A DNA stretch of 64,000 bases, taken from positions 1-64,000 of the forward strand of contig NZ_CZPZ01000003.1 of the NCBI RefSeq assembly GCF_001458775.1, written 5' to 3'. Shown here piece by piece: positions 10,360-48,253 of the stretch; position 1 is the first letter of the stretch, and each line of letters opens with the position of its first letter. The stretch comes from Candidatus Nitrospira nitrificans. GTDB taxonomy: Bacteria > Nitrospirota > Nitrospiria > Nitrospirales > Nitrospiraceae. Both the position numbers and the translations under genes were made by a program. Under the pieces are notes generated by a model that worked only from the letters and a program-made list of their open reading frames with translations, did no database searches and was not told the origin of the DNA.

Positions 10360-11165
10360 TTTTTCAAAGTGCCGGCAGCTAGTCTGAAGTGGAAGGCCGG
10401 CCGACGTCAAGTGGAGCGGCAACGGCAGTGAGTTCCCTGTCGTTACGTCCGTGTCCACGCCATGTCTCAACTATGAATGATTCGATCACGTCCCCCATCT
10501 TGAGGTGAATCGAATTGGATTCAGGGTGTATCGCTTTAGGTTCATCACCAACCTTCCCCCGTATCTCATTCGCATCTCATCGCGAGAAATCTTCTATTCA
10601 AAGAAACTGCTGTATTATCGAGGCAGTCCAACTGTTTTACGTATTTTTGTTGAGTTGTCTATTCCCTAATCCGATCAGTGGCTCGTCTATTGCTGGAGCG
10701 AGGCACGTGTAGGGCCTGGATGGATCACGGCCCAGGCACAGTTGAATCAGCCGGTTGCCGACCCGTTTCTCTCTGACCGCCTCCACCGGGGGGACAGTCA
10801 CTTCAGGGCTCGATACGCATGGGGACATGAAAACCGGACTATTGGAGTTATCATTTTTCAAGAAAACTATTTCTCTCCGGAGAACACCTGTGAGGAGTAA
10901 AACGGATTCGCTGTAACGAATGTGGAAGACGAGAACTACAGGATGCCCGGAAAAATTTTCAGGGGTGATGTGGGGAGCAGGGCGATGAAGGGACGAGGAA
11001 TCACCTTAAAGGGTTATTGTGCAAAATACGTAACAGGAATAGTTAGGCGGCCAAGAACGGAATGCCATACCCTGGTGCGGACCTTTTGTGAACGATGCAT
11101 ATCCGGTTGTGACTGTGAAGAGTACTCGGACGATTCATTCCAGGGTCAGGAGGAGAACTGCCCCC

Positions 11166-19807: not shown

Positions 19808-19846
19808 TGAATCTATTTTGATTCAGCATGAATACATTTAGATTCA
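19808..19846. promoter_or_regulatory. Tandem operator A (2 units, 21-bp pitch)
   Basis: TGAATC-TATTTT-GATTCA (19808-19825, perfect inverted arms) and TGAATA-CATTTA-GATTCA (19829-19846, one mismatch). Both fit GNATC-N6-GATTC, which also occurs at 31281, 39280 and 42993. It lies 106-144 bp upstream of a -24/-12 promoter, where enhancer sites for sigma54 activators normally sit. Confidence 0.7.
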
Positions 19847-19951
19847 CCATCCGTCTCAGATCCGTGGCCGAAGCATCATCTCATATCAAGATTCGCTAGG
19901 GTCCCGCACGAATAATTTCCCCACTGCGGCTGTTGGCGATCAAGACGCTGA

Positions 19952-19966
19952 TGGCATGTGGCTTGC
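19952..19966 (+). promoter_or_regulatory. Sigma54 (-24/-12) promoter of TonB receptor operon
   Basis: TGGCATG-TGGC-TTGC: GG and GC are exactly 10 bp apart, and ten of twelve consensus positions match TGGCACG-N4-TTGCA. The predicted start is near 19978, 70 nt before the first receptor gene. A sigma54 response regulator is encoded in the same gene group (29716). Confidence 0.72.
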
Positions 19967-20048
19967 CATATGAAACAGAACTCACGTGGAGAGGTGTGTC
20001 TCGCCTCGCTGAATCGGCGAAGCGGGCGCACCCTGGTTGGACGAGTGA

Positions 20049-22091
20049 ATGGTACGATATCGGCAAATCTTCTCTCTTGCTTGCCTATCCTTTGTCGCCA
20101 TTGTCTTGTTGATGTTGTTCCCCGTCGCTGCCCGGGCAGAAGACCGCAAGAACACATCGGGCGCGCCGCTCGACCAGGGCATCCCCGTCGAGCTCCAACT
20201 GCTCAAAGAGGAAGAGACGGTCAGCATCGCGTCGCGCTATGAACAGCCGATCTCTCAAGCGCCGTCGAATGTCTATGTGATCACCGACGAGGATATCCGC
20301 CATTCGGGCGCCACTGACCTTCCGACGATTTTACGCCGTGTCCCGGGGATCGAGGTCATGCAGGTCACGGGAGCCGACTTCAACGTCAGTATTCGCGGAG
20401 ACAATCAGTTGAACGCCAACAAGTTGTTGGTGATGGTCGACGGACGATCGATCTATGTCGACATGCAGGGCGGGTTGTCTTGGAAGAATATTCCGGTGAC
20501 GTTGCCGGAGATTAAACGCATTGAGGTATTGAAAGGCCCTGCGTCGGTGATCTATGGGTTCAATGCTTTCGACGGGGTCGTCAACATCATCACCAAGTCC
20601 CCGAACGAGATCAACGGGACGACGGTTCAGCTTGGTGGAGGTGAGCTGGGCACGATTTCGAGCGCCGCCATCCATGCCGGCACACAGGGCCAATTCGGAT
20701 ATCGGCTTTCGTTCGGTCATGACCAGAATGCGCAATGGCGCAATCGAGACGCCTTGGCGTTTCAAAACAACAAAGTTCACGTCCAAACAGACTATGCGGT
20801 AACGGCCGACTCTCGGATACGACTCTCCGGGGGGTGGGCCGACGCCACTCGCTACGATGGCCCGGTGTTCAACCTACAAACTCCGTCGACTCCACTCACG
20901 CAAAGCTTTGCCGACATCGGTTACGAACGCCCGAACTTCTATATTCGCGGCTGGTGGACACAAAACGACATCAACGCAGACCTCATCATGCACCCGTTTC
21001 TGAACAATCGATTGCAAGAGGTCAACCAATTCGGCGAACGCAGCCTTGCCTTCCTGACCAATACCTATAATGTCGAAGCACAACACAGTCTGGACCTGTG
21101 GTCGAATAACCGGCTCACCTATGGAACCAATTATCGTCTCAATACCGTTTCAGGAAACGGCGTGGCCAATACCGGCGAGGAAACCCGCTTCGGCCTCTAT
21201 CTCCAAGACGAATGGAGATTCACGGACCGCTTCAGCGCGACCGCCGGTGTCCGCTACGACCTGAATTCCTTCATCAACCCGACCATCAGTCCGCGTCTCG
21301 CGCTGCTCTATATCATTGCGCCTGAGCACACCCTTCGAGCGACGGTATCCGTCGCCTATCGGCCACCGACACTCTTTGAACGTGAAAGCATCGCGCGGTT
21401 CGTGACCACGCTTCCGCCGCCGTTCCCCTCTCCATCACCTTTTCCGCTTGTGGGATCGCAAACGCTCAAGCCGGAGCAGATCGTCTCGTACGATCTTGGC
21501 TATCAAGGGTGGTGGTTCAAACACCGTCTGCGCGTGCGAGCCGATCTCTTCTTCAACCATATTTCCGATTTGATCAACTTCGTCTCCGTCGGAACAACAC
21601 GCACGTTTGCCAACGGAGGGATAGCCGACATTTATGGTGGGGAAATCGGCGTCGAGTTCTTGGCGACTCCGTGGCTCAACGGATTTGCGAATGTCTCCTA
21701 CCAGGAGATCGGTCAGACATTCGTGGGAACCAGTCGGAGAGGCGCTCCTGCGTGGAAGGTGAATGCCGGGTTGCGGGGTGAGTGGGATAACGGCCTCAGC
21801 GGCGAGGCAACCGTTCATTACGTGTCTGGAGCGACCTATCCCGTCGTCGGGACCTACCAAACGCTCGCGCCGTTCGGGGCGACAGTGCCGAATTCCCGTG
21901 TGGACGGCTACACCTTGCTTAACCTTCGAGGCGCCTACAAATTCTGGAAACAGAAAGCTGCCGGGGGATACCTGCGGGACGCCGAAGTGGCGGTTTCCGG
22001 GTTTAACTCATTGAACGACAGACACACCGAACATCCCTTAGGGAATATGATCGGCAGCCGCGTCATGGGGTGGTTGACGGTGCGGTTTTAG
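20049..22091 (+). CDS. TonB-dependent receptor 1
   Basis: A 680-aa outer-membrane receptor. ATG 20049 gives a signal peptide ending at ARA (residue 30); no strong ribosome site is seen. A likely TonB box (EETVSIA, about 55-61) is followed by the plug (NVYVITDEDIRHSGATDLPT, GVVNIITKSP) and a 22-strand barrel ending in WLTVRF with terminal aromatic residue. It is small for the family. It is the first of three tandem paralogues that share a nearly identical N-terminal region but differ in predicted extracellular loops. Substrate unknown; vitamin, siderophore or metal complexes are all possible. Probably driven by the sigma54 promoter at 19952. Confidence 0.9.
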   Translation: MVRYRQIFSLACLSFVAIVLLMLFPVAARAEDRKNTSGAPLDQGIPVELQLLKEEETVSIASRYEQPISQAPSNVYVITDEDIRHSGATDLPTILRRVPGIEVMQVTGADFNVSIRGDNQLNANKLLVMVDGRSIYVDMQGGLSWKNIPVTLPEIKRIEVLKGPASVIYGFNAFDGVVNIITKSPNEINGTTVQLGGGELGTISSAAIHAGTQGQFGYRLSFGHDQNAQWRNRDALAFQNNKVHVQTDYAVTADSRIRLSGGWADATRYDGPVFNLQTPSTPLTQSFADIGYERPNFYIRGWWTQNDINADLIMHPFLNNRLQEVNQFGERSLAFLTNTYNVEAQHSLDLWSNNRLTYGTNYRLNTVSGNGVANTGEETRFGLYLQDEWRFTDRFSATAGVRYDLNSFINPTISPRLALLYIIAPEHTLRATVSVAYRPPTLFERESIARFVTTLPPPFPSPSPFPLVGSQTLKPEQIVSYDLGYQGWWFKHRLRVRADLFFNHISDLINFVSVGTTRTFANGGIADIYGGEIGVEFLATPWLNGFANVSYQEIGQTFVGTSRRGAPAWKVNAGLRGEWDNGLSGEATVHYVSGATYPVVGTYQTLAPFGATVPNSRVDGYTLLNLRGAYKFWKQKAAGGYLRDAEVAVSGFNSLNDRHTEHPLGNMIGSRVMGWLTVRF

Positions 22092-22154
22092 CCTGGTGGT
22101 TTCAAGTCCCAGTGCGCGGGGTTGCTCATAGCTGGCTCAATTACCGAGGCGCGC

Positions 22155-24212
22155 ATGGCACGATATCGGCAAATCTTCTCTCTTGCTTGCCTATCCTTCG
22201 TCGCCATTGCCTTGTCGATGCTGTGCCCCGTCGCTGCCCGGGCAGAAGACAGCAAGAACAAATCGGGCGCCCCGCTCGATCATGGCATCCCTGTCGAACT
22301 GCAACTGCTCAAAGAAGAAGAGACGGTCAGCATCGCGTCGCGCTACGAGCAGCCGATCTCTCAGGCCCCGTCGAACGTCTATGTGATCACCGACGAGGAC
22401 ATCCGAATGTCCGGAGCGGCGGACCTCCCCACCATCCTTCGCCGAATCCCTGGGATGGAAGTCATGCAAATGAGCGGTGCCGAATTCAATGTGAGTGCAC
22501 GTGGCAATAACCAACCGCTTGCCAACAAGCTGCTCGTCATGGTGGACGGTCGCTCGATTTATGTGGATGCCCAGGGTCTTACGTATTGGAAGTTACTGCC
22601 CATTACCTTGCCAGAAATCAAGCGGATCGAGGTCCTCAAGGGGCCTGCTTCAGCAGTCTACGGATTTAATGCGTTTGATGGGATCATTTCAATCACCACG
22701 AAATCTCCGGCGGAAATGCGAGGCGCGACGCTGCAATTCGGCGGCGGAGACGTGGGCACCCTGAGCGGCGCTGCCGTTTACGCCAATGTGGTGAACAAAC
22801 TCGGCTACCGTCTGTCAGTCGGCCACGACCAACATGGCCAATGGAGAAATCACGATGCACTAGCCTTCCGTTCAAATAAATTCAACGTTTCCACTGAATA
22901 CGCCCTCACAGAAGACTCTCGACTGGTAATCAATGGTGGACTCGCAAACGCAAACCGGTTTGACGGCAATATTGGAGAATCTACCATGAATGCCGGTTCA
23001 TCCTCGCAGCGCTATGCCTCAATTGCTTATGAGCGCTCTCATTTCTTTCTACGTGCCAACTGGACAGGGTTCTCCGACTCTACGGATATTATGTTTAATC
23101 CGCTCGTCGCCTCATTCATCAAACTTTTTAATCTGACGGGAGAGCCACTCTCGCGCAATGATAGCCGGTCCAATACCTACAACCTGGAAGCTCAGCATTC
23201 ATTGGCACTGACCCCCTCTAATCTCCTGACATACGGTGCTAACTATCGGCGCAACACCTTGGACCACCAATTCATATCGCAGCCAGGCCGTGAGGATCGT
23301 TTTGGAGTGTACCTCCAAGATGAATGGAGCATGTCCACTTCTCTCAGCCTTATCGCCGGTGCGCGCTATGATCTCCATAGTGAAATCAATGGCACGTGGA
23401 GTCCACGCGCGGCGCTGCTTTATAAGCCTACCCCTAACCATGTGTTCCGGCTTGGACTATCGGTGGCTTACCGTCCCCCTACAATGCATGAGTCATTGGC
23501 TACGTCTCAAGCAGTCATCACATTACCATCACCAGCCAATTCACCTCCTCCAACTATCCTACGGCCCTCTTCGAATCTTGATCCTGAACGGATCATTTCC
23601 TATGAACTCGGCTACCAAGGCTGGTTCTGGGCGCACCGGCTGCGACTTCGCGGCAATCTCTTTTTCAATCACATTACTGATCTTATCAACTCCATCACGG
23701 TGTCACCCGGAGTCGCCTCCTATGTCAACATTCCAGGCCAGGCGGATATCTACGGAGGCGAGATCGGCATTGAAGCACTGCTCACGCAATGGCTTACCGG
23801 CTTTGCGAACGTCACCTACCAAGATGTCGGACAGTCGTTTATCGATACGAGTCAACGGGGGGTGCCCCATTGGATCGCCAATGCCGGATTGCGAGGCAAC
23901 TTGGGCACGACGTGGAACGGCGAGCTGCTGTTTCATCATGTCGCCGGCGCCGACTATCCGCTGACCAACACCATTTTACAGCTGGCTCCACTCAGTGGAA
24001 TGGGCCCTCCAAATCAGACAGTCAGCAGCTATAACTTGCTGAACCTCCGACTCGGGTATCGGTTCTGGCAAGAAGCAGCGGCGGCCGGTTATCGCCGCGA
24101 GGCGGAGGCCGCAGTATCTGTGTTCAACGCGCTCAACGACACGCACAAAGAGCATCCCTTGGGCGATCTCATCGGAAGCCGCGTCATGGGGTGGCTGACG
24201 GTGCGTTATTAG
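22155..24212 (+). CDS. TonB-dependent receptor 2
   Basis: A 685-aa paralogue. The start at 22155 (MARYRQIFSLACLSF) is chosen by exact agreement with receptor 1; the frame is open 11 codons further upstream. Signal peptide, TonB box (EETVSIA) and plug are nearly identical to receptor 1, down to DNA level in the first 240 bp. The barrel diverges, for example in DHQFISQPGREDRFGVYLQD and the proline-rich loop LPSPANSPPPTILRPSS. It ends WLTVRY. The gap to receptor 1 is 63 bp and to receptor 3 only 20 bp, so the three are likely co-transcribed. Divergent loops suggest different ligands for one shared TonB system. Confidence 0.9.
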   Translation: MARYRQIFSLACLSFVAIALSMLCPVAARAEDSKNKSGAPLDHGIPVELQLLKEEETVSIASRYEQPISQAPSNVYVITDEDIRMSGAADLPTILRRIPGMEVMQMSGAEFNVSARGNNQPLANKLLVMVDGRSIYVDAQGLTYWKLLPITLPEIKRIEVLKGPASAVYGFNAFDGIISITTKSPAEMRGATLQFGGGDVGTLSGAAVYANVVNKLGYRLSVGHDQHGQWRNHDALAFRSNKFNVSTEYALTEDSRLVINGGLANANRFDGNIGESTMNAGSSSQRYASIAYERSHFFLRANWTGFSDSTDIMFNPLVASFIKLFNLTGEPLSRNDSRSNTYNLEAQHSLALTPSNLLTYGANYRRNTLDHQFISQPGREDRFGVYLQDEWSMSTSLSLIAGARYDLHSEINGTWSPRAALLYKPTPNHVFRLGLSVAYRPPTMHESLATSQAVITLPSPANSPPPTILRPSSNLDPERIISYELGYQGWFWAHRLRLRGNLFFNHITDLINSITVSPGVASYVNIPGQADIYGGEIGIEALLTQWLTGFANVTYQDVGQSFIDTSQRGVPHWIANAGLRGNLGTTWNGELLFHHVAGADYPLTNTILQLAPLSGMGPPNQTVSSYNLLNLRLGYRFWQEAAAAGYRREAEAAVSVFNALNDTHKEHPLGDLIGSRVMGWLTVRY

Positions 24213-24232
24213 CGCTTCCTGATAGGATTTGC

Positions 24233-26251
24233 ATGGCACGATATCATCTAACCTTCCTTCCCGCTTGCCTATCCTTCGTCGCCATTGCCTTGTCGATGCT
24301 GTGCCCCGTCGCGGCCCGGCCAGAAGACAGCAAGAACAAATCGGGCGCGCCGCTCGATCAGGGCATCCCTGTCGAACTCCAACTGCTCAAAGAGGAAGAG
24401 ACGGTCAGCATCGCGTCGCGCTACGAGCAGCCGATCTCTCAAGCGCCGTCGAATGTCTATGTGATCACCGACGAGGACATCCGCCAATCAGGCGCGGTGG
24501 ACCTTCCGACCGTGCTGCGGCGCATTCCCGGCATGGAAATCATTCAGATGAGCGGCGCCGACTTCAACGTCAGCGTCCGAGGGGACAATCAGTTGCTGGC
24601 CAATAAGCTGCTGGTCCTGGTCGACGGTCGCTCCATCTATATCGACGCGCAGGGCACGACCTTTCTGAAAATGCTGCCCGTGACATTACCGGAGATCAAA
24701 CGGATCGAGGTCCTGAAGGGTCCAGCCTCCTCCATCTATGGATTCAATGCGTTCGACGGCATCATCAACATCATCACGAAATCTCCGGAAGAGATGAAGG
24801 GCACGACCATGCAGATCGGCGGTGGAGAGTTCGGCACGCTGACCGGCTCGGCCATTCATGCCGGCCGGGCCGGAAAATGGAATTATCGCCTTTCCGCGGG
24901 AGAGGAGCAAAATCAACAATGGCGGAATCGGGATGCGCTCGCCTTTCGAACCTATAAATTCAACGCCCACACGGAGTACGCGCTGACATCGGACTCGACA
25001 CTCAAGGTGTCAGGCGGATTTCTTGATAACAACCGATTTGACGGACCCACCTTCCGCGGCGCCGTCGTTCTGAACTCCCAGTTCGTACTTCCCTACGCCA
25101 ACATCGTCTACGAACGCCCCGATTTTTTTGTCCGCGCCTATTGGAACCAGTTCAATGCACTGTCCGATATATTGACCGACCCTCTGCTGGCTGCGTTTCT
25201 CCGCACGACCGACAAAAACGGCGGCACGCGCTTGGACTTTCTCGGGAATACCTACAACCTTGAGGCCCAGCATACCCTGGAATGGGGTGGACATCGACTG
25301 ATCTACGGCCTCAACTACCGACTCAATACATTTTCAGGAAACAGCATCACGGGCGCGAGTCAGGAGAACCGCCTCGGTATGTATGTACAGGATGAGTGGA
25401 AAGTCACCGACCGGTTCACTGTGGTGGCCGGCGCCCGCTACGATCTCCATACGGAGATTAATCCCACGATCAGCCCGAGAGCATCGTTATTGTATCAACT
25501 GACTCCTGCCCACACTTTGCGGGCCTCCGTGTCGATGGGTTATCGTCCACCCGCGCTCTTCGACACTCACGAGGACTTACGAGTACAGTTTCTTCCTCCG
25601 TCGGGAGTCACAGCCAACGTGCCGGTCCGCGGCTCGCATAATTTGCACCCGGAACAAATCATCGCCTATGACATTGGGTATCAAGGCTGGTACTTCAACC
25701 ACCGTGTAAGATTACGGACCGATCTCTTTCTGAATCACATTTCCGACCTCATCGATACCGGCGGGAACCCTCTGACCGGGTTCAACAATTCCAACGTCGG
25801 GGAGGCGGACATCTTCGGCGGGGAGGCCGGCGTTGAGTGTATGGCAACGAGTTGGCTCAGCGGTTACGCCAACTATACGTACCAGGAGGTCACCCAACGG
25901 GGAGCCGATCGCGGCGCCCCTCGCTTTAAAATCAACGCCGGCGCGCGCGGCCTGTGGGAAAACGGCCTCAGCGCCGAGATCAACTATTTTCACGTGGGCT
26001 CGGCTACTTACCCGATCGAAGGATTCTACTCGCTTTCACCCACGCCCCCGAACGAGCGGGTGCGGAGCTATGATTTGTTGAACCTACGGGCAGCCTATCG
26101 TTTCTGGCAACAACCGGCTGCGGCGGGATACCTGCGGGACGCTGAAGTCGCGGTTTCCGCGTTTAATGCATTGAACGACACACACAAAGAACATCCCTTA
26201 GGGGACACACTCGGGAGCCGCGTCATGGGCTGGTTGACGGCACGCTACTAG
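24233..26251 (+). CDS. TonB-dependent receptor 3
   Basis: A 672-aa paralogue. ATG 24233 follows AGGATTT and aligns with receptors 1 and 2. The TonB box EETVSIA and plug (PGMEIIQMSGADFNVSVRGD, GIINIITKSPEEMKG) are conserved; the barrel ends WLTARY. It differs from the others in the extracellular parts, such as RGAVVLNSQFVLPYANIVYE and FLPPSGVTANVPVRGS. The next gene, a periplasmic binding protein, begins about 90 bp downstream, consistent with one operon running to the response regulator. Confidence 0.9.
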   Translation: MARYHLTFLPACLSFVAIALSMLCPVAARPEDSKNKSGAPLDQGIPVELQLLKEEETVSIASRYEQPISQAPSNVYVITDEDIRQSGAVDLPTVLRRIPGMEIIQMSGADFNVSVRGDNQLLANKLLVLVDGRSIYIDAQGTTFLKMLPVTLPEIKRIEVLKGPASSIYGFNAFDGIINIITKSPEEMKGTTMQIGGGEFGTLTGSAIHAGRAGKWNYRLSAGEEQNQQWRNRDALAFRTYKFNAHTEYALTSDSTLKVSGGFLDNNRFDGPTFRGAVVLNSQFVLPYANIVYERPDFFVRAYWNQFNALSDILTDPLLAAFLRTTDKNGGTRLDFLGNTYNLEAQHTLEWGGHRLIYGLNYRLNTFSGNSITGASQENRLGMYVQDEWKVTDRFTVVAGARYDLHTEINPTISPRASLLYQLTPAHTLRASVSMGYRPPALFDTHEDLRVQFLPPSGVTANVPVRGSHNLHPEQIIAYDIGYQGWYFNHRVRLRTDLFLNHISDLIDTGGNPLTGFNNSNVGEADIFGGEAGVECMATSWLSGYANYTYQEVTQRGADRGAPRFKINAGARGLWENGLSAEINYFHVGSATYPIEGFYSLSPTPPNERVRSYDLLNLRAAYRFWQQPAAAGYLRDAEVAVSAFNALNDTHKEHPLGDTLGSRVMGWLTARY

Positions 26252-26344: not shown

Positions 26345-27313
26345 ATGATGCTTCTCGCCCGTACAAGCCGAAGAAAGACGAGCTTGCGCTCGTGGCATGC
26401 CTGGCTGGCGTCGTTTACCCTCATCGCTATTTTTTGCTCCGTCCCGACCAGGACACAGGCTGGAGGCGTGGAGATTGCCATTCTGAGATCGTCCGATCTG
26501 AAGGCCTACAATGATGCCGTTGAAGGATTCAAGACGACGGCGCCCGTCGGAACGACCTATACCGAATACGACCTGCGAGGCGACCTTGAACGGGGAAAGC
26601 AACTCGCCAGAAAACTCCGCGCGTCGGACACGGCGCTCGTGGTCGCGGTCGGCCTGAAAGCGGCATTGGCGGCCAAGCTGGAGATCGTGGACACTCCGGT
26701 CCTGTACATGATGATTCTCGACCCCTTGAAACATCGCCTCACCGCTGACAATATGACCGGAGTTCTACTGGAAATTCCGACGGACCGTCAGTTCAAGATC
26801 ATGCGCACGTTCCTCCCCACCCTGCGCCGGATCGGCATGATGTACGACCCCGATAAGTCCGCGCCCAAGTTGAAGGAGGCGGCGGCGCGAGCCTCCGTCT
26901 ATGAGTTTCGCTTGCAGGGGTTTCCGGTCGAGAATGAGAAAGATGTTCCACAGCAACTACGGACGCTCTTGTCCGAATCGGAAGCGTTGTGGCTCATTCC
27001 GGACTCGACCGTCCTGACGGACGAATCGATCCGCTTCATCCTCGAATCGGCAGTGGCCAAACAGGTTCCCGTCATCGGCTTTTCCTCCGAGCTGACGCGC
27101 CTTGGCGCCCTGCTCAGCATGTCGATCGACTACGGCGAAGTCGGCCGAGAAGCCGGTCTCCTCGCCAAACGTATCGTGAACGGCGAACAACGGCTCCCGC
27201 TCAATCCTGTCTCGGTCCAGCGGGTCAAAATCACGGTGAATCAGAAGACCGCGCGATATTTAGGCGTGACGATTCCCAAAGAGCTCGACAACCTGATCGA
27301 CGAGACTTATTGA
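26345..27313 (+). CDS. Periplasmic ABC-type substrate-binding protein (PF04392-like), orphan
   Basis: A 322-aa protein. A basic start and hydrophobic segment end at RTQAGG, giving a periplasmic mature protein. Typical elements of the ABC_sub_bind family are seen: VEIAILRSSDLKAYNDAVEG, VVAVGLKAALAAK, TPVLYMMILDP, RIGMMYDPDKS, ALWLIPDSTVL, VIGFSSELTRLGALLSM, GREAGLLAKRIVNGE. No ABC permease or ATPase is nearby. Instead its TGA is followed at once by the ATG of a sensor kinase. That order, repeated in the second module (45429-48234), suggests the protein carries ligand to the kinase sensor domain rather than to a transporter. Confidence 0.85.
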   Translation: MMLLARTSRRKTSLRSWHAWLASFTLIAIFCSVPTRTQAGGVEIAILRSSDLKAYNDAVEGFKTTAPVGTTYTEYDLRGDLERGKQLARKLRASDTALVVAVGLKAALAAKLEIVDTPVLYMMILDPLKHRLTADNMTGVLLEIPTDRQFKIMRTFLPTLRRIGMMYDPDKSAPKLKEAAARASVYEFRLQGFPVENEKDVPQQLRTLLSESEALWLIPDSTVLTDESIRFILESAVAKQVPVIGFSSELTRLGALLSMSIDYGEVGREAGLLAKRIVNGEQRLPLNPVSVQRVKITVNQKTARYLGVTIPKELDNLIDETY

Positions 27314-29677
27314 ATGGACCAATCCATGCGCGACACCACGATCCAGGAGAAGCCGAATCCGGAACCCAGACCGACCGCGCGGTTCTTCGGCCTCCGCATG
27401 AAGTTCGTGGTCCTGTTCAGCCTGATCCTCATCATGACCTGTTCGTCCTTGAGCTGGTATTTCATTGAGACCAGACGACAGGCCATGACCGATAATCTGG
27501 AAGAACTTGGAACGATCTTATTGACCAATACCGTCCGCAACGAGCACTTTCGCGTCGCCGGCGTCGTCCTTGAAGATCACGTCACGCTCGAGCAATTCAT
27601 TCAGAGCCTCATGGCAATCGACCACGTCGTCTATGTGGTCATCGCGGCGTCCGATGGCCGGATTCTTGACCGACAAAGCAAACGAACTCGGAACGCGTCG
27701 AACGGATTCTCTCCTGCCACGGAACAACCGCTCTATCCGAACGACCGAATCTCACAATCGCTGTTCCAGGCTCCATTGACGACTCCGCTGATCACGCGGG
27801 TCGTGCTCTCGCCTGAACAGACATTGGTCCCGCAGGATGCGTCTTCAGACTGGCTCCTGCCATTTCTCCTGGGAAAAGAAACTCTGTTCGACTTCGCGAT
27901 GCCTATTCTTCGGGAATCCCCGGCTGCGCCACCCATACCTCAGCTTTCGGTTGAATTGGAAGAAAAAACACGCTCTGCTCTCCCGAAACAATCCTCTCCG
28001 ATCATCGGCCTCGTCCGCATCGGAATCACCGACATGCAGGCCAAGGAGGCCCTATCGGTGATCGTCCGCAATGTCTCGATCCTTACCCTCCTCATCATCG
28101 CGGGAGGCATTGTCGGCGCTCATCTGTTGACATCACGCATTACGACGCCGCTGCGGAGTCTCGCCAACTCTGCTCGCCAACTTGCCAAAGGAAATGATGC
28201 GCCGGTTGCTCTTATCGCATCCACTCACGATGAGGTCGGTGAACTGACCGATGTGTTCAACGCGATGACACAGTCCTTGCATGATCGCAATCACGCCATC
28301 ACCATGAACCTCGAAACGATCCGGCGTCAGGTTACGCAATTGACCACGGTGCATCAGGCCAGTGCCGCCATCGCCAGCGCCAACATGCTTAACCTGGACC
28401 AGTTGCTTGACACGGTGCTCCAGTTGCTTGCCGCGAATCTAGGGTTTTCTAAGATGGCGATCGTGCTCTACCACGCGGAGCGGAACAGTTGTTCCGTCGC
28501 CCATATCATCGGCGTTTCCCCGGAGATAGAGCATGCGGCGCGCCGAATACACATACCAGTGCATGACGGCAGCACCACGGCCGATCTCCTCATTCACGGC
28601 AAACCACTGCTGATCCACGATATTGAAGCCGTCACGTCACGCGTGCACCCTCCGGTGCTTGAATTGCTGCGCCGTTCCAAGACGCGCTCGGTTGCGTGCG
28701 TGCCGCTGCAAAGCCATGCCAAGATCCTCGGCTATCTGGCAGGTAGCCGAGGCGTGCAGCAATGCAGCGACGAGGACCTCCATATTCTGCTGACGATCGC
28801 CGGCCATGTGGCGGCCGCCATCGACAATGCCAAGGCCTATTCCGATTTGACGGAGTTGACGCAGCATCTGGAGGAACGCATCGAGCAACGGACCGAAGAG
28901 CTCTCGCGCGCCAACACCCGGCTGCAAGAACATGATCGGCGCCGGTCGACGTTTCTTTCCGTCGTTTCGCATGAGCTTCGAACACCCATGACGGCGATTC
29001 GAAGCTTTTCAGAAAACATGCTTGACGGCGTCACAGGCCCGCTGAATGATCTACAACACACTTACCTCTCCCGCATCGAACACAACGTCGCCCGGCTTGG
29101 GAGAATCATCGTGCAACTGCTCGATTGGTCGCGCCTCGACACCAAAAACATCCAGCTTCGCTTGGAGGACGTCTGCATCCACCAGATCGCAACGATCACG
29201 GCTGACAGCTTGCAGATGATGGCCGCGGAGAAAACCGTCACCCTTGCCGTCGCGCCGGCCGAGTCGCTTCCACTTGTTCAAGGCGATCGCGACAAATTGG
29301 AACAAATTCTGTGGAACCTCATCGGCAATGCGATTAAATTCACCCCAGCCGGGGGTCGTGTGACGGTGGAGTGTCGCGTGTCGCCGCCGGGCTTCGTACA
29401 GACCTGTATCGCCGACACCGGTTGCGGAATCGCCCCGTCCTATCTGTCGAACATCTTCGAAGAGTTTTCCAGAGTGCCGTCGGCCATGCCCACATCGCAA
29501 GGCGCGCAACTTGGTCTCTGCATTACAAAGACACTCGTCACCATGCATCGCGGACAGATCTGGGTGGAGAGCCGGCCGGAGGTGGGGTCCCGTTTTTATT
29601 TTACACTCCCACTCGCCGGATCACAGGGTGAGTCGAGCGAAACAACTCGACAGGCCGATGGCATCCCCATCGTGTGA
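27314..29677 (+). CDS. Sensor histidine kinase (HAMP-GAF-HisKA-HATPase)
   Basis: A 787-aa inner-membrane kinase starting directly after the binding-protein stop. The first helix is at about 35-52 (FVVLFSLILIMTCSSLSWYF), then a roughly 200-residue periplasmic sensor region, and a second helix at about 255-275. Next come HAMP (RITTPLRSLANSARQLAKG), a coiled coil, a GAF domain (about 350-510), and a HisKA box with phospho-acceptor His553 (SVVSHELRTPMT). The ATPase domain has its N (LWNLIGNAIKF), G1 (ADTGCGIAPSY) and G2 (GAQLGLCITKTL) boxes. It should phosphorylate the adjacent sigma54 regulator at 29716. Confidence 0.92.
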   Translation: MDQSMRDTTIQEKPNPEPRPTARFFGLRMKFVVLFSLILIMTCSSLSWYFIETRRQAMTDNLEELGTILLTNTVRNEHFRVAGVVLEDHVTLEQFIQSLMAIDHVVYVVIAASDGRILDRQSKRTRNASNGFSPATEQPLYPNDRISQSLFQAPLTTPLITRVVLSPEQTLVPQDASSDWLLPFLLGKETLFDFAMPILRESPAAPPIPQLSVELEEKTRSALPKQSSPIIGLVRIGITDMQAKEALSVIVRNVSILTLLIIAGGIVGAHLLTSRITTPLRSLANSARQLAKGNDAPVALIASTHDEVGELTDVFNAMTQSLHDRNHAITMNLETIRRQVTQLTTVHQASAAIASANMLNLDQLLDTVLQLLAANLGFSKMAIVLYHAERNSCSVAHIIGVSPEIEHAARRIHIPVHDGSTTADLLIHGKPLLIHDIEAVTSRVHPPVLELLRRSKTRSVACVPLQSHAKILGYLAGSRGVQQCSDEDLHILLTIAGHVAAAIDNAKAYSDLTELTQHLEERIEQRTEELSRANTRLQEHDRRRSTFLSVVSHELRTPMTAIRSFSENMLDGVTGPLNDLQHTYLSRIEHNVARLGRIIVQLLDWSRLDTKNIQLRLEDVCIHQIATITADSLQMMAAEKTVTLAVAPAESLPLVQGDRDKLEQILWNLIGNAIKFTPAGGRVTVECRVSPPGFVQTCIADTGCGIAPSYLSNIFEEFSRVPSAMPTSQGAQLGLCITKTLVTMHRGQIWVESRPEVGSRFYFTLPLAGSQGESSETTRQADGIPIV

Positions 29678-29715
29678 GAGCATAACGTTGTTTATTGAAA
29701 AAGGAGCGACAGACG

Positions 29716-31167
29716 ATGCGCGCTAAAATTCTTGTTGTCGACGATGACCCCGATATCCTCCTGAGCCTGCAGAATCGTGTCAGTTTTATGGGACACGAAC
29801 CCCTGACGGCAACGAACGGCAAGGATGCCTTGCGCATGATCGGGGAAGAAGAGCCCGATCTCGTCTTGCTCGACTTGAAAATCCCGGAGATCTCCGGGCT
29901 TGACGTATTAAGGCAAATCGGTGCGGCATCCATTCCGAGTGAACCCAGAAACGAGGAGACACCCCAGCCCACACCCCCCTATACCACCCCATTGATCATC
30001 ATACTCACTGCCTATGGAACCATTGAACTCGCCGTACAAGCCATGCAACTTGGCGCCTTCGACTTTGTGCCGAAGCCGTTCACCGCGGACCACCTCGCCA
30101 TCGTCATCAACAAGGCCTTGGCCACCGTCTCCCTCCACCGACACGTGGATACGCTCCGCAAGGAGGTTGATGATCAGTTCGAACCGATCGTCTCGACCAG
30201 CAAACCGATGAGCGAACAACTGACGGTGGCCAAACAGGCGGCGGCGTCCTCCGCGACCGTCTTATTGCTCGGCGAAACGGGGACCGGAAAAGAAGTCGTC
30301 GCCCGCGCTATTCACCGATGGAGTCCTCGCTCCGCGAAACCGTTTATTGCCGTGAATTGCGCCGCCTTTCCGGAACACTTATTGGAGAACGAGCTGTTTG
30401 GCCATGAGAAGGGCGCGTTCACCGGCGCCATCAAGCGGGAGCCCGGCAAAATCGAGATCGCCGAAGGAGGCACGCTGTTTCTTGACGAAATCGGTGACAT
30501 GCCGCTCACCATGCAAAGCCATCTCTTGCGAGTCCTGCAAGACCGGACCTTCTACCGGGTCGGCGGCACGCAAGAAGTCCGGACCAACGTCCGGTTTATC
30601 GCCGCGACGAATAAAGATCTGAAACAGGCCATTCAGCAAGGCACGTTCCGTGAAGACCTGTATTTTCGCCTGGCCGTGATTACCGTCGCTCTGCCGCCGC
30701 TGCGGGAACGGATGGACGATCTTGCCGCGCTCATCCACCATTTTCTCACCCGTCCCAGCAACATAGGCCTGTGCAAACGCTTGACCCTCAGCGACGAAGC
30801 CTTCCAGGCGCTGCAACAGTACGCCTGGCCCGGCAATGTCCGTGAGTTGGAAAACGTGCTCACTCGCGCGATGATCTTATGCCCCGGCGACACGATTGAC
30901 CCGGAGCACCTCGCCTTGACGGCTTCCACGACGTCAACGATCGCCGCTCCTCCGGTGAATCAAGAGCCCGCTACCGAGATCCTGTTTTTCTCATATCACA
31001 AGAGCATGGATGCCTACAGCCAGAAGCTGATTGAGGAAGCCTTGCGTCGGAACGGGTGGAATCAGACGAAAGCGGCAGCCGAACTCGGCTTGCAACGAAC
31101 CTACTTGACCAAATTGCTCCGGCAGAAGCAGATTCCCGGCAAGCCGCCTGTTCCTCCTGCCGATTGA
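29716..31167 (+). CDS. NtrC-type sigma54 response regulator 1
   Basis: A 483-aa enhancer-binding activator. ATG 29716 has AAGGAG 12-17 nt upstream; the frame is open a few codons earlier from a TTG. The receiver domain has acceptor Asp53 (LVLLDLKIPE) and contains a proline-rich insert of about 20 residues (PSEPRNEETPQPTPPYTTP) not present in regulator 2. The AAA+ domain shows Walker A GETGTGKE, the sigma54-contacting GAFTGA loop (EKGAFTGAIKRE) and Walker B FLDEIGD. A Fis-type helix-turn-helix ends the protein (NQTKAAAELGLQRTYLTKLL). Likely targets are the operators at 19808 and 31281, which bracket this module. Confidence 0.93.
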   Translation: MRAKILVVDDDPDILLSLQNRVSFMGHEPLTATNGKDALRMIGEEEPDLVLLDLKIPEISGLDVLRQIGAASIPSEPRNEETPQPTPPYTTPLIIILTAYGTIELAVQAMQLGAFDFVPKPFTADHLAIVINKALATVSLHRHVDTLRKEVDDQFEPIVSTSKPMSEQLTVAKQAAASSATVLLLGETGTGKEVVARAIHRWSPRSAKPFIAVNCAAFPEHLLENELFGHEKGAFTGAIKREPGKIEIAEGGTLFLDEIGDMPLTMQSHLLRVLQDRTFYRVGGTQEVRTNVRFIAATNKDLKQAIQQGTFREDLYFRLAVITVALPPLRERMDDLAALIHHFLTRPSNIGLCKRLTLSDEAFQALQQYAWPGNVRELENVLTRAMILCPGDTIDPEHLALTASTTSTIAAPPVNQEPATEILFFSYHKSMDAYSQKLIEEALRRNGWNQTKAAAELGLQRTYLTKLLRQKQIPGKPPVPPAD

Positions 31168-31280: not shown

Positions 31281-31318
31281 GCATCACATCCGATTCACCT
31301 AGCATCCGTTCGGATTCG
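31281..31318. promoter_or_regulatory. Tandem operator D (2 units, 21-bp pitch)
   Basis: GCATC-ACATCC-GATTC (31281-31296, then A) and GCATC-CGTTCG-GATTC (31302-31317, then G) repeat with a 21-bp pitch, the same as operator A. Both units fit GNATC-N6-GATTC. It sits about 75-110 bp before the -24/-12 candidate at 31392. Confidence 0.6.
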
Positions 31319-31391
31319 GAAGCGAATGATCCGATCTGCGAGCGGATCACAGAGGTGATGCAACTACAAGTCTTTATGCGCGGATCGGCTG

Positions 31392-31406
31392 TGGTCCGAA
31401 AAATGC
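31392..31406 (+). promoter_or_regulatory. Candidate sigma54 promoter before micropeptides
   Basis: TGGTCCG-AAAA-ATGC has GG and GC 10 bp apart and about nine of twelve consensus bases. A start near 31418 would give a leader of about 100 nt to the first micropeptide. GG-N10-GC occurs often by chance; the operator upstream is what lifts this candidate. Confidence 0.45.
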
Positions 31407-31525
31407 TTCAGCACTCCTCATCAACAAGGATCAGGCCACCGTGGGATCACGGGATTCCGAGCGATGACGGCTCAAGATCCGGAGAACCACACGTTACGAA
31501 ACGCACAGAAAGGACGGGTACAAAT

Positions 31526-31615
31526 ATGATGAGTGATGAGATGGCCATGGTGACGATTTTGGGCGCGATCATTTTTGCAGTGGTGATGATGGTGATGTTC
31601 ATGCGCGAGGCGTGA
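31526..31615 (+). CDS. Methionine-rich single-helix micropeptide 1
   Basis: A 29-aa membrane peptide: a short acidic, Met-rich start (MMSDEMAMV), one hydrophobic helix of about 18 residues and a charged end (FMREA). AAAGGACGG lies 8-16 nt before ATG 31526. Eight of 29 residues are Met. Peptides of this size often act as small subunits or stabilisers of membrane complexes (as CydX and KdpF do). Which complex is unknown. Met clusters could bind Cu(I), but that is speculation. A second micropeptide follows, after a strong ribosome site. Confidence 0.6.
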   Translation: MMSDEMAMVTILGAIIFAVVMMVMFMREA

Positions 31616-31694
31616 CGCGTGAGGAAATAGGTTTGCCTCAATCTCGCGCGATGCAGCATCGCGACGAACTCTTCATGAAAGGGGGTGAGAGGTG

Positions 31695-31784
31695 ATGATA
31701 CTGCTGATGTTGTTGAACATTGGAGCGCTGGTGATCGGTGCGCTGTTCTTTATGTATGGGACGTTTCGCCCTGAGCGCGAGTAA
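31695..31784 (+). CDS. Single-helix micropeptide 2
   Basis: A 29-aa peptide (MILLMLLNIGALVIGALFFM, then YGTFRPERE): one transmembrane helix with a basic/acidic C-terminal tail, expected to face the cytoplasm. AAAGGGGGTGAGAGG precedes ATG 31695, an unusually strong ribosome site. It lies 79 bp after micropeptide 1 on the same strand. It resembles other tiny membrane-complex subunits only in form; no family is recognised. Confidence 0.6.
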   Translation: MILLMLLNIGALVIGALFFMYGTFRPERE

Positions 31785-32068
31785 TCGTGGTGAGGCGTGC
31801 GGCTTTGATCCCTTACCAAAAGGTTTTCATCGTGGGGAATAGATCTAGATGCGAGCCGGGATGGGTTCTACTACCTACCGGCTCGCGTTGAACAGCTCGA
31901 ACGAGGCAGAAATGAAAGAAGATACTGAAGAGGTTTATCCCGTCGCCTTTATGGAAGAGGAGGCTCCGTGTCGAGCACGATTGGAAATTCGAATCACTAG
32001 GAGGTGTTTATCCGTGCGTGTCAATCACGATACGGCGATGATCAGCGCACGGCCCACACGAAGTGCGG

Positions 32069-32147
<79 letters not shown>

Positions 32148-36314: not shown

Positions 36315-38306
36315 CTATTCGTCATGCGGGTTCCGGCCAGGAAGTGGCCCGATTGGATTCCGCTGTTTTCTCGTGAGCTGAGCCTTGTACCCCACCGGCA
36401 GCTCTTGCACCCAACCGTTGTAGACGTTGGGGACCGGTTGCACACCCTGGGCACCAAAGCCCTTGTTGCCGATGATCTGGTCATCCTTCGGCACATTGTC
36501 GTTCGCCAGCACCACGGTCCCGGCGATCACGGCGTCATTGACGTTACCATCATTGTTGGGATCATAGTCCAATACGATCAGCCGGTTGGCAAACTTGCTG
36601 GTGACATAGGCATAGTACCCGCCACCTTTCTTGGCGCCGAAGTTCACCCCGTGGCAGCCAGGATCGCAGGGCACCATCTTCACCAGCGTATCCGTCGCCG
36701 TATCGATGATGGTGATCGTCCCCGTCAACGTATTGCCCTGAATCACGAATTTCCCATCCGGGCTCACCGGGGTTTGGACCGAAAAGCCACCGATCGGGCC
36801 GGTGATGTCGCCGGTGACCGGATGATAGTTCCCATTGAGGAGCAGGCTGATGTCCTTGATCTTCTGCCCAGGAACGCAGCTCCCCGCCGGCTTCGGATAC
36901 TGCCCACACATCACCGAGATGGTGTGGCCCAGGTAGTTGGACACATAGTTTTTGCTCGAATCCGGCATCATGCCGGTCGCAATAGGCAACACGCCACTCG
37001 GCTCTTGATCCAGAATGACGTTATTGTTGAAATCATAGAGCGTGGAGTCGCCCGTGTTCGAATTCGGAGTGATCATCGACTTACCGTCGAACCCCATCCA
37101 GTGGGCATGGGGCTGGGTCTGTTTGCTCCCTGCGACCATGGACATCGGAATAAACCGGTTGATGCTCAGCAGGCCGGTGGCGGGATCGCGATTCAACTCC
37201 ACCACGGTATCGTCACCATTGCACCCCGCATGCACTTGCTGCGTGTCCACCCGCGTCATCACATGGGCGGGGTCATAGCATTTCTTGCCGTTGAATTTGG
37301 GATCGTTGACCTCAGGTCCGTTGACGAGATCAATCTCCTGCATGAGAGTGCCGTTCCGCCGATTGATCACGTAGAGACTGTTGCCGTGCCATTCCGTCTG
37401 ATAGATCTCCTTCTGATCATGGCTGGTCCAGAAGTTGTGTCCATTGTTCATCTTCTGCTCGGGCAACGCAATCTTCCGCTTCACGCCCCAGCCCGTGGCC
37501 GACACCACGGTCATTGTCCCGGGAAACTGCTCCGGCTTCCCAGCCGTCAATTCGTAGGCGGTATCGACCCATACCTCGCCGATGCCGTTCTTCTTGGGCT
37601 TGTCTTGCTTCTCAATGACCCCACCGTCAATGTGCTTGGTCGTCACGAAATAGGCTTGCATGGCGGTATTCAGGTTGGCGATCGAGAGGCTACCAAGCTT
37701 GACCGGCACCTCGGGATATTTCGGCTCGTACGGGGTGCCGACCTTCGTGTAGTCTTTCCAATTGCCTGGATTGGTCACAATGAAGAAGGCTCGCAGAACG
37801 CGCAGGGCAATATCTGTCGGCGCGCCGCCAACCACAGTGGGGAACGGGACTGTTCCGCCTGGTCCGCCTAACAGGACCAGATTTTCACCGAGATCCAGCC
37901 CTGGCGTGTTGGGATCATCGACGATGGCAGCGCCCAGCATGTAAGGATGCAGCTTGCAGACGAAGACATGCAGGCCCGGCGTCTGGAGCGTAACCTGATG
38001 GTCCAGCATATTGGCGCTGTCTTGATCGATCTGCTCGGAAGCTTGAGAACCGGCCGGCCAGATCAGACTGGTCACGGTGTGGCGGCTCTCCACGGCCTTC
38101 GGTCCTTGTGTCTGCGTGAAGAACACCGTATCGCCCGGAGTCACGACAACCAGTGACCGGGTGCCTCCCAAGTCCCACGCGGAACCCGCGTCGAACCAAT
38201 GGCCTGGCGTATCATTGACGACAAACGTCTGATTCGCCGCTACCGCCAGCTGGCTCGCTCCCAGCAACAGTCCTGCGGCCAGGGGTAATACACGACTCAT
38301 TTTCAT
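36315..38306 (-). CDS. Exported cupredoxin / beta-propeller copper protein
   Basis: A 663-aa periplasmic protein with AGGGAGG before ATG 38306 and a signal peptide ending at AVA (residue 23). Residues about 25-130 form a cupredoxin with all type-1 copper ligands: His76 (ESRHTV), Cys117, His120 and Met123 (FVCKLHPYM). The C-x2-H-x2-M spacing is that of amicyanin. The rest is a beta-propeller (VNGPEVNDPKFN, THAHWMGFDGKS-like and VSPDGKFVIQGNTLTGTITI blades). Residues 547-552 read CDPGCH, a CX3CH pattern that could be an unusual haem site or a disulphide. The nearness of haoA suggests electron transfer in nitrification, but that is inference. It might instead be a copper-dependent enzyme. Confidence 0.8.
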   Translation of the reverse strand: MKMSRVLPLAAGLLLGASQLAVAANQTFVVNDTPGHWFDAGSAWDLGGTRSLVVVTPGDTVFFTQTQGPKAVESRHTVTSLIWPAGSQASEQIDQDSANMLDHQVTLQTPGLHVFVCKLHPYMLGAAIVDDPNTPGLDLGENLVLLGGPGGTVPFPTVVGGAPTDIALRVLRAFFIVTNPGNWKDYTKVGTPYEPKYPEVPVKLGSLSIANLNTAMQAYFVTTKHIDGGVIEKQDKPKKNGIGEVWVDTAYELTAGKPEQFPGTMTVVSATGWGVKRKIALPEQKMNNGHNFWTSHDQKEIYQTEWHGNSLYVINRRNGTLMQEIDLVNGPEVNDPKFNGKKCYDPAHVMTRVDTQQVHAGCNGDDTVVELNRDPATGLLSINRFIPMSMVAGSKQTQPHAHWMGFDGKSMITPNSNTGDSTLYDFNNNVILDQEPSGVLPIATGMMPDSSKNYVSNYLGHTISVMCGQYPKPAGSCVPGQKIKDISLLLNGNYHPVTGDITGPIGGFSVQTPVSPDGKFVIQGNTLTGTITIIDTATDTLVKMVPCDPGCHGVNFGAKKGGGYYAYVTSKFANRLIVLDYDPNNDGNVNDAVIAGTVVLANDNVPKDDQIIGNKGFGAQGVQPVPNVYNGWVQELPVGYKAQLTRKQRNPIGPLPGRNPHDE

Positions 38307-40550: not shown

Positions 40551-42284
40551 CTACTTCTTGTGACGCCGCCACCCTGCGAGGGCAAGGGTCCCGGCGAGCA
40601 TCATGCCGCCGCCGATCCCGCCCAGCGAGATCTTGCCGGTCTCCGTATCGAGATCCAGCAGACTATGCTTCATCTGGCCTTCGAGCTTGGCCACCCGCGC
40701 TTGAAGATCCAGCTTTTCCTTAAGGCGCGTATCATCGTCCATGATTTCCACATAGGCCCGATTCATCGCCGCCCAACCCACCGTATAGGTATAGCCCCAA
40801 TACTGGTGCGCCAAGCTGACGTGTAATTGCACCAAGTGGTCTTCCGCCATTTCGAACAGTTTCAATTCATTGGCCGCTGGATTGTTTCCCTTCGACCAAT
40901 AGATCTGGAAGAACTTTTCAAAGCCATCCGTCTCCGGCGCCGGTGGTGCCGGACGGTTCGTCTTCTGACCGGTCAACAGCCCGGACTTATACTGCTCCTC
41001 GACGACATGATGGGCTTCGTCGTACTTATCGATACCTGAGAAGGTTCCGTTATCCATGAACTCCAACCACGCGCGGGCATAGGTCTCGGAGTGACACTGG
41101 GTACAGGTTTTCACCCAGGCATCGTTCCGCTTGTCGGCCCATTCGGTCTTGATGTTCTCCCGAATGCCCGGCACGAACGGATAGTTCGCCCAACGGACCT
41201 TCCGCACGATGTTGTGGGCAATCTTGCCCTGATATTCCATGTGGCAGTACTGACACGTTGGGGCCGTTTCGGCGCCCTTCGCGATGGCTTCCTTGATGGG
41301 GATATTGAAGTTCCAGTGATCTTTAGCGCGCTGATACTTCAACCCATGCTTGGAGAGTGAATAGGCTTCCCAGTTGTTGTGGTCGGCCCCGCTATGGCAC
41401 TGCGCACAGACTTCCGGCTTGCGTGATTCCGCCACCGAGAATTCATGCCGCGCATGGCAGGTATCGCACTTATTTTGATTGACGTGGCAACCCGTGCAGC
41501 CATCGGCGATTTCTCGCTGCGGCATCCCGGCATAGACTTCCACTTCCACATTGGCCCTATAGTCCAATGCGTGGGACGGACGTCCCTTGGGCCACTGATC
41601 CTTCGGCCACGTAATCGTATCCCGCTCGGATTCGCGCTCGGCAAACTCTTGCAGGTGACAGGTCCCGCAGGTATCGGCGGTGGCCAGCTTGATATCCTTC
41701 CGGTGATCGGCCTTGTTCTTGGTATTGATGTCGAAGTGACAATCAATACAGCCGACTTCCTTCAGGTTCTCCCCCTTGCCCAGCTTCCCGATCGAGCGGA
41801 GGTTGGCTTCAACCGCTTCCAGCTTCGCCTTCTTATAGAAGGTCTCATCTTTCGGGGTCAGCTTACGGATCTTGTCCAGATTCGCATGGGTGCTCTTCTT
41901 CCAGGCCGCCACCCATCCGGGTGATTCATCCGTGTGGCACTTCACGCACTGCTCACGGCTGGCGACTTCTTTCACCGCCTGGGGGGGCTTATAGAAGGTA
42001 TGGGGATCGAAATACTTACTGAAGGAGACCGGCTGCCAATAGTCGCCGTATTTCCCTTTTCCCACGCCCTGCTGCGCCGGATCCATATACCGCTTGACCA
42101 ACGCTTCATACAGTTCCTTCGGCGAGGCTGAGCGATCAATCTTCAAGGCCTCGTAGGTTTCCTTCGGCACGGTGGGGAAATCCGCCTGCGCCTGCGCCGC
42201 CAGGACAACACCGCAGACGACCAGCAGCGCACATACCCGCATGAGGTTGACGCTCATCGTCCACATGCTTTGTGTCCATACCAT
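40551..42284 (-). CDS. haoA: Hydroxylamine oxidoreductase (octahaem)
   Basis: A 577-aa periplasmic multihaem enzyme that oxidises hydroxylamine in ammonia oxidation. AAAGGAG lies ahead of ATG 42284; the signal peptide ends near AQA (about residue 34). Eight CXXCH motifs start at Cys113, 179, 206, 263, 273, 293, 344 and 394. The fourth (263-267), close to the fifth, would be the P460 catalytic haem; its cross-linking Tyr should be in [10 protein letters not shown] (Tyr 498 or 500). The last residues form a helix ([20 protein letters not shown]) that could anchor it in the membrane. No haoB, cycA or cycB follows. Upstream are two small co-directional genes. I am confident of the octahaem HAO family; true HAO rather than a relative rests on the Tyr segment. 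Confidence 0.9.
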
Positions 42285-43252: not shown

Positions 43253-45290
43253 ATGTGTATGAAATGGTTACGAACTGTCCTGATTGCCGTCTGTTGGTGG
43301 AGTGGTCCGCTCGACGGCTGGGCTGAGCCTTTGTTCTCAATCCCTCGTCCTTCTTCAGCAACTGAAAAGCAGCTCCACGAAGAATCGCTCTACCTAAAAG
43401 AAGAAACCGTCAGCATCGCGAGCAGGTATGAACAACCGATTTCTAAAGCCCCATCGGATGTCTACGTCATCACCGATGAAGATATCCGCAAACTCAGGGG
43501 CAACCGATATCCCGACTCTGCTGCGGCAAGTCCCTGGCATGGAAGTCATGCAAACGAACGCGGTCGATTTCAACGTCAGTGTGCGCGGAAATAATCAGCT
43601 GGCGGCCAATAAGCTCTTGGTCCTGATTGATGGCCGCTCCATCTATGTTGACCAAGCTGGTCTCACCTTGTGGAAACAGTTGCCCACATCACTGCTCGAG
43701 ATCAAACGAGTTGAGGTCCTGAAGGGCCCAGCATCGGCTGTGTATGGATTCAATGCCTTTGACGGAGTCGTGAACATCATCACCAAATCTCCCGAAGAAT
43801 TGAAAGGAACCACACTTCAGGTGGCAGGTGGTCAAGTGGGCACGTTACTCACGAGCGCGGTCCAAGCGGGAACTATTGGAAATTGGGGCTACCGTATATC
43901 AGGCGGACACGAGCAGGCCCAACGTTGGTCTAACCACGACGCGCCAGCACTGAGTGGCCAACGAATTGGTGGGCTAGCCGAATATCGCCTGTCAGGAGAT
44001 GGAAAGATCCGAGCCGAGACAGGGCTAGGACGATCAAGCCCCTATAGTGGGTTCGTGAACCAAATTTCCACTTCAGATAATCATCTTTCTCAGGCCTATG
44101 CACTTGTCAGTTATGAACAGAATAGGCTCCTAGTCCGCGGCTGGTGGAACGGGCTCTTCTCAGAAAGTAGTCCGCGAATATTTCCAACGCTGGTGCCGCT
44201 TCTCACTCAAACCGACCGCTTTGGACGAACAGACCAGGAACACCACCTTAATACCTATGACTTCGAGACACGATACCGCTTGGCACCGTTTCAGACACTT
44301 AACCTAAGTATCGGTGCAAACTTCCGTCACATCCTTCACTCCTCGAACATTCTTACAAGGCGCACAACGGAAAATCGTCTAGGACTCTATGCCCAGGGAG
44401 ACTGGCTGGTGCTTCCTTCCCTGGAGCTGAGCGCCGGACTGCGCTATGACCTTGAGACCTTCCTTGCCCCCACCCTCTCTCCTCGTGGTGCGCTCGTGTA
44501 TCATATGAATGCGAACCATGCGCTTCGGCTGTCCGCCTCGGTCGCCTATCGTCCGCCGACCACGACTGAGGCTAGCCTCAGTCTACTAAACCCTGTCACC
44601 CTTCCCGCCTTGCCACCTCAGATTACCGTCGTTACGGGCACAGCCGACGTGAAGCCAGAACAGATCATCTCCTATGAAGTGGGCTACCAAGGCTGGTGGT
44701 GGGAGCATCGATTACGGACCAGACTGACGGGGTTCTACAACCACATTTCGGATCTAATTGCCTTTCGGAATCCGACCGGTAATCATTTGAATCCGGTGCG
44801 TCCGGTGAATGGCGGCGTGGCCGATGTGTACGGTGGAGAAATGGGGGTTGAGGTCTTGATGACCTCCTGGCTGTCGGGATTTGCCAACTATGCATATCAG
44901 GAGATCGGACAAAGCTCCAGTGGATACAGCCGGCACGGGTTTCCACACCACAAAGTCAATGCCGGACTCCGTGTGACATGGCATCCATTTACCGGAGAGG
45001 TGCTCTACCACCACGTAGGTGCCGCATCCTATCCCTTAGCTGATGCCTTTACGAATCTCGCTCCATTTTTCCCCACCGGGGCTATCATTCCCCAAGAACA
45101 TGTTCCCGCTTATAACTTACTGAACCTCCGTTTTGGCTACCTCATCTGGCAACAACGATCTGGCGACAACGTACGGGAAGCTGAGCTGGCGCTTTCGGTC
45201 TTCAATGCCCTCAATGACAACCATCGTGAACACCCACTGGGCGATCTTCTCGGTTCCCGGGTGATGGGGTGGCTCACGGTGAAGTTGTAA
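43253..45290 (+). pseudogene. TonB-dependent receptor 4, frameshifted
   Basis: Paralogue of the three receptors at 20-26 kb. The signal peptide ends near GWA; the TonB box EETVSIA and NVYVITDEDIR-like text (DVYVITDEDIRK) lie in the first frame. An extra C at 43493, inside CGCAAACTCAGGGG, moves the reading to another frame, where SGATDIPTLLRQVPGMEVMQ continues the plug without loss. The barrel then runs intact to WLTVKL at 45290. One base deleted would restore a receptor of about 678 residues. As written the receptor is not made, unless the shift is a consensus error or is bypassed. The next genes (binding protein, kinase) copy the order of the first module. Confidence 0.85.
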
Positions 45291-45428
45291 ACCAGATGTC
45301 GCACAGATTCCCTGGCCCAAGAGTTGCTTAATTATTCATCTTCATCGCACTCTCGAGGTTGAGGATGTTGGCAGTCCTCGGAGAGAATGCGTTATGATGG
45401 TCCGTGGCCGATAAAGCGTGGTGACCTT

Positions 45429-46394: not shown

Positions 46395-46443
46395 CGCGCA
46401 TCGAAAGGACCCCGACCACTTGCCGGTTTCTAGGCGAGCTGCC

Positions 46444-48234: not shown

Positions 48235-48253
48235 GGTTGTCACAAAGAGACGA

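Follow-up and report, generated by a model that had tools for sequence, protein, structure and literature searches.

Two tandem reading frames of 29 residues each, P1 and P2, occupy the interval between the stop codon of a response regulator gene (RR1) and an opposite-strand tRNA gene (32074-32147) in the 64,000-nucleotide stretch of Candidatus Nitrospira nitrificans DNA analysed here (the window). Comparison with related genomes gives good support for both as real, conserved protein-coding genes missed by conventional annotation. P1 (MMSDEMAMVTILGAIIFAVVMMVMFMREA) contains eight Met and P2 (MILLMLLNIGALVIGALFFMYGTFRPERE) follows it, each with one hydrophobic helix, and the ATGs of both are preceded by a Shine-Dalgarno-like stretch. 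An initial annotation of this DNA had described tandem 29-residue membrane micropeptides with ribosome sites, preceded by an operator and a sigma54-like promoter; both frames were found as it described them, and the operator and promoter are not only present but conserved in relatives. The features of the locus, all on the + strand, are as follows.

20049-26251, +, three tandem TonB-dependent receptors (TonB1-3), recognized as open reading frames in the same gene run, with a Pfam match for the third
26345-27313, +, ABC_sub_bind periplasmic binding protein (PF04392; synteny), with no permease alongside
27314-29677, +, HK1, membrane sensor kinase with HAMP, GAF, HisKA and HATPase domains (Pfam; synteny)
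29695-31167, +, RR1, sigma54-activating response regulator of the NtrC type with receiver, AAA+ and Fis HTH domains (Pfam)
31281-31296, +, operator (UAS) copy 1, GCATCACATCCGATTC, an imperfect dyad of the GAATC-N6-GATTC type
31302-31317, +, operator (UAS) copy 2, GCATCCGTTCGGATTC, an imperfect dyad whose block GGAATCCATTCAGATTCAG is conserved in relatives
31392-31407, +, predicted sigma54 -24/-12 site, TGGTCCGAAAAATGCT, with GG-N10-GC kept at the same place in relatives
31526-31615, +, P1, Met-rich single-helix micropeptide of 29 residues with homologues in about 20 other Nitrospira
31695-31784, +, P2, single-helix micropeptide of 29 residues; two variants of the same length class with an R-E/R-K end in relatives
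31848-31887, +, G+C-rich hairpin 3' of P2 (centroid fold), with no U-run

Protein searches revealed P1 homologues with 62-79% identity in 11 relatives of the same genus and weaker matches in others, and a profile search gave strong P1-like matches (E at or below about 1e-9) in about 30 of 79 Nitrospira genomes. All matches among the named records of a separate collection belong to Nitrospira or Nitrospiraceae. A profile search of 395 genomes of the phylum yielded no significant match to the P1 family outside the genus; two marginal extra-genus matches in the phylum-wide search (E about 0.008) were not accepted as homologues. Neither P1 nor P2 matches a Pfam or NCBIfam family, and profile searches of the PDB with each matched no chain. 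Among 13 distinct 29-codon P1 sequences pN/pS is 0.30, and third codon positions account for 53% of the differences compared with 34% when columns are shuffled, a share that 0 of 300 shuffles reached; P1 thus appears strongly to be under selection at the level of the protein. The initial annotation had named loss of the frames in relatives as the outcome that would speak against it. The P1 frame is instead conserved, with synonymous changes favoured, and the P1-P2 unit follows RR1 orthologues in about 20 other Nitrospira. In two genomes that have RR1 and an intact P2 (G020 and G059) P1 is broken, so P1 is evidently dispensable and can be lost.

P2 or a variant of it lies 3' of P1 in 19 of 21 distinct loci. 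Its two sequence types have pN/pS values of 0.65 and 0.51, and an excess of third-position differences was found in the smaller type only. The last 28 residues are identical across five distinct DNA versions, and the length is kept at 27-30 residues while the spacer between P1 and P2 ranges from 40 to 181 nt. P2 appears more relaxed than P1, yet frame-preserving, with a weak signal of selection on the protein. These patterns bear on whether the conserved unit might instead be a regulatory RNA in which the reading frames are incidental. The predicted sigma54 transcript is short and a hairpin similar to that at 31848-31887, probably the 3' end of the transcript, is present 3' of P2 in most relatives, as such an RNA might have; but the codon-phase selection on P1, the conservation of ribosome sites and frames across so variable a spacer, and an Rfam search that matched tRNA only make this explanation highly improbable. 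A longer open reading frame (31355-31615), in frame through P1, was rejected because its start precedes the promoter and its frame is not conserved, being much shorter in most relatives.

The predicted promoter region is conserved as well: the operator, the sigma54 site and the ribosome site are kept in 19 of 19 aligned upstream regions. Across these loci the operator consensus is GGAATCCATTCAGATTCAG and the sigma54 site is close to TGGCYYAAGAAMTGCTTAG. The two operator copies are repeated with a period of 21-23 bp in all 19 loci that have P1 first, and 73-76 nt separate copy 2 from the sigma54 site in relatives. The arrangement expected of a sigma54-type promoter, GG-N10-GC together with upstream activator sites, is thus found here and conserved in relatives, and the window's own promoter and operators match the consensus more poorly than do the relatives' versions. 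A genome-wide scan for the sigma54 pattern was uninformative (159 matches compared with 200 in a reversed control), and the argument therefore rests on the pairing of such sites with operators at near-constant spacing.

RR1 is the presumed activator of this promoter. Genomes compared at the protein level have an RR1 orthologue with about 75% identity or more immediately 5' of P1, and in one genome (G101) the regulator at the corresponding place aligned at 65%. Linkage of the pair to a regulator, as the initial annotation had it, is therefore borne out in the P1 genomes examined. In several relatives the TonB receptor is absent or reduced and the two-component genes and peptides are retained; P1 and P2 stay with ABC_sub_bind, HK1 and RR1 even there. 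Within the window the three tandem receptors TonB1-3 are closely similar to one another, with near-identical N-terminal regions. In its architecture the system resembles PrsK/PrsR, a sigma54 system of PEP-CTERM genes with an NtrC-type response regulator, in which a sometimes repeated upstream site is followed by a spacer of about 60-75 nt and a -24/-12 promoter, mostly in front of single-gene operons (PMC1569441, PMC9850573). RR1 is likewise NtrC-type, with a repeated upstream site, a similar spacer and a -24/-12 promoter. Its predicted targets are different, comprising micropeptides, TonB receptors and a secretion gene. RR1 matches the PrsR model TIGR02915 below threshold, scoring 399.9 bits against a curated cut-off of 502.6. 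Among the best 25 kinase models listed there is none for PrsK.

Two further sets of operator and promoter were found in the window.

19809-19967, +, tandem UAS (19809 and 19830) and a strong predicted sigma54 site (19952), 5' of TonB1-3, ABC_sub_bind, HK1 and RR1
10507-10694, +, UAS (10507) and predicted sigma54 site (10679), 5' of a gene at 11088 that we judge from its sequence to be two-partner-secretion-like

The UAS pair and sigma54 site of the RR1 operon are conserved in ten relatives, and where TonB1 is absent the same arrangement sits directly before ABC_sub_bind. Allowing up to three mismatches, the window contains six operators against a shuffle mean of 0.94, and 0 of 100 shuffles reached six. 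With a stricter pattern the whole genome of this organism gives 11 matches at nine places compared with none for a reversed control. A sigma54 site accompanies not all of these nine places, and at the window's operator sites 39297 and 43010 no convincing sigma54 site was found in the expected direction. The tandem UAS and sigma54 sites common to P1/P2 and the RR1 operon strongly suggest that P1 and P2 are expressed under their cognate regulator, RR1. Since such sets precede both the RR1 operon and the micropeptides, RR1 probably activates its own operon and has several micropeptides among its outputs.

Known small hydrophobic toxins resemble P1 and P2 in size and hydrophobicity, and the pair could on those grounds belong to a type I toxin-antitoxin unit. 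Against this are the constant position beside one regulator, the dedicated activator-type promoter and the finding of no known antitoxin RNA family in the Rfam search, and we give the toxin explanation almost no credence.

The Met content of P1 had led the initial annotation to suggest Cu(I) binding or a role as a small subunit of a terminal oxidase, to which ammonia monooxygenase (AMO) may be added. The richness in Met is genuine: P1 orthologues carry 5-9 Met in 29-31 residues, whereas Met makes up 3.6% of the hydrophobic segments of the window's proteins, and Met21 and Met26 are invariant in the 13 distinct sequences. However, in some relatives positions 2, 6, 8, 20 and 24 carry non-ligand residues (Leu, Ile, Phe, Thr or Val) instead of Met. 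P1 also fails to track AMO: 12 AMO genomes are without P1, and among the 13 genomes with P1 at the locus an AMO match is present in eight and missing from five, in some cases perhaps owing to assembly gaps. Oxidase subunits of the CydX and CcoQ type are, like P1 and P2, membrane proteins with one helix and a few dozen residues, but P1 and P2 differ from them in having no Pfam, NCBIfam or PDB match and no oxidase gene alongside; the P1 neighbourhoods listed showed neither an oxidase gene nor a copper gene. We therefore see no support for the copper or oxidase role and consider it very unlikely.

Taken together, the coding and regulation of P1 and P2 are well supported by sequence comparison, whereas RR1 binding, translation, topology and the partner, or target, of the peptides are matters that we infer. 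We marginally favour a model in which P1 and P2 form a sigma54 operon activated by phosphorylated RR1 and their membrane helices tune a larger membrane protein, likeliest HK1. Phosphorylated RR1 would bind the two tandem sites about 75-110 bp 5' of the -24/-12 promoter, and a transcript from near 31418 would carry both reading frames and probably end at the hairpin near 31888. Once translated, each peptide would insert its single helix into the inner membrane, with the acidic N-terminus of P1 probably outside and its basic C-terminus inside according to the positive-inside rule. There they may bind the larger protein by helix-helix contact and tune it; with HK1 or related kinases as the likeliest single partner, they would act as a brake on the system that activates their own operon. 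HK1 leads on two grounds: it is ABC_sub_bind-HK1-RR1, and not TonB1, that the peptides accompany, and two-component systems that activate themselves can have a brake, as PhoQ has in MgrB. In Escherichia coli MgrB is a membrane peptide whose expression the response regulator induces and which inhibits the corresponding kinase, PhoQ (PMC2789325; PMC7808668). By analogy, P1 and P2 would share with MgrB a small size, an inner-membrane location, induction by the regulator of a membrane kinase and a feedback logic within a self-activating system. MgrB differs in having 47 residues, in not being known to be under sigma54 control and in having no recognized sequence relation to P1 or P2, a comparison made through the Pfam and NCBIfam libraries only, where neither peptide matches any family. 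P1 and P2, for their part, are two peptides encoded in tandem next to the regulator, with contact to the kinase as a proposal.

The peptides could alternatively be outputs of the regulon that act on some other membrane target, such as TonB/ExbBD energization, a transporter or a respiratory complex, and not on HK1. That the regulon takes in TonB receptors and a two-partner-secretion-like gene accords with such a target, as does the occurrence of related peptides away from HK1 (P1b, which is P1-like, and the unlinked P4, both described below). We nevertheless consider it unlikely, though a serious contender, given that P1 and P2 remain with ABC_sub_bind-HK1-RR1 even without TonB1 and that neither a transporter gene nor a respiratory gene accompanies them consistently.

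Feedback on HK1, the model we prefer, has to be set beside these additional micropeptides. In two genomes (G006 and G011) a P1-type promoter precedes P3 (MRSELTILALWATIYLTGLILAMFLIAV...), visibly related to P1, in place of P1; in two others (G024 and G016) a P1-like reading frame flanks P3 on either side, and in G032 a stop interrupts the P3 frame as read from the printed sequence. P4 (MRGSLWLNMELNIGWLLLLLAVTLAAR) is a membrane peptide of 27 residues (L169:1501-1581; C3:105669 in this organism's own genome), about 41 kb beyond the window and unlinked to HK1; one of the nine places with the stricter operator pattern lies 5' of it. Six loci retain its operator pair together with the sigma54 site, and the peptide, encoded 5' of a lipoprotein-like gene, is conserved and duplicated in relatives. 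P1b (MFGD(M/I/V)AMITI...) is a sister family of P1 at other Nitrospira loci (L071-L090), away from HK1/RR1 and often flanked by a reprolysin-like metallopeptidase on one side and a holin-like membrane protein on the other. About 112 nt 5' of the start, most of its members carry a near-perfect sigma54 site, and its operator, GTATC-N6-GATAC, is distinct from that of P1. The ATC-N6-GAT common to P1b and RR1 operator half-sites suggests that their activators are related, and a search with the P1b operator in four genomes identified no single regulator. Since P1b lies away from HK1/RR1 with another operator and P4 is unlinked, the range of targets may extend beyond HK1. Tentatively, and at somewhat less than even odds, P1, P2, P3, P4 and P1b may constitute a class of membrane micropeptides that is peculiar to the genus and switched by sigma54, outputs of under about 60 residues each placed behind the operators of related two-component activators and tuning either their own sensors or some membrane machine that they share.

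Few parts of bacterial genomes are annotated as poorly as small membrane proteins, and most nitrifiers are hard to manipulate genetically. Regulator-induced small membrane proteins are a known kind of system; this family, its control by sigma54 and a regulon with several peptides look new as far as the open-access literature and the named libraries show. Here the evidence of coding comes together with an operator, a promoter, a presumed activator and several paralogues in one testable package, which gives a concrete regulon to an orphan sensing system that many Nitrospira possess, some of them with AMO. If the feedback model is true, the pair would be a sigma54 counterpart of MgrB.

Several other features of the window deserve mention. 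A second copy of the sensing module (43428-49645) comprises TonB4, ABC_sub_bind 2, HK2 and RR2, with RR2 convergent to HK2 and 59% identical to RR1; operator-like sites lie near 43010 and a sigma54-like site (45313) precedes ABC_sub_bind 2. The two module copies enclose an HAO-type multihaem cytochrome gene (40551-42284, - strand; Multi-haem_cyto). Between the sensing modules and this HAO-like gene sits the gene for a 663-residue exported protein (36315-38306, - strand) with an apparent cupredoxin-type N-terminus and weak beta-propeller matches, and with an operator-like site upstream at 39297. Finally, overlapping frames at 8452-9141 (- strand) resemble a transposase remnant split by a frameshift.
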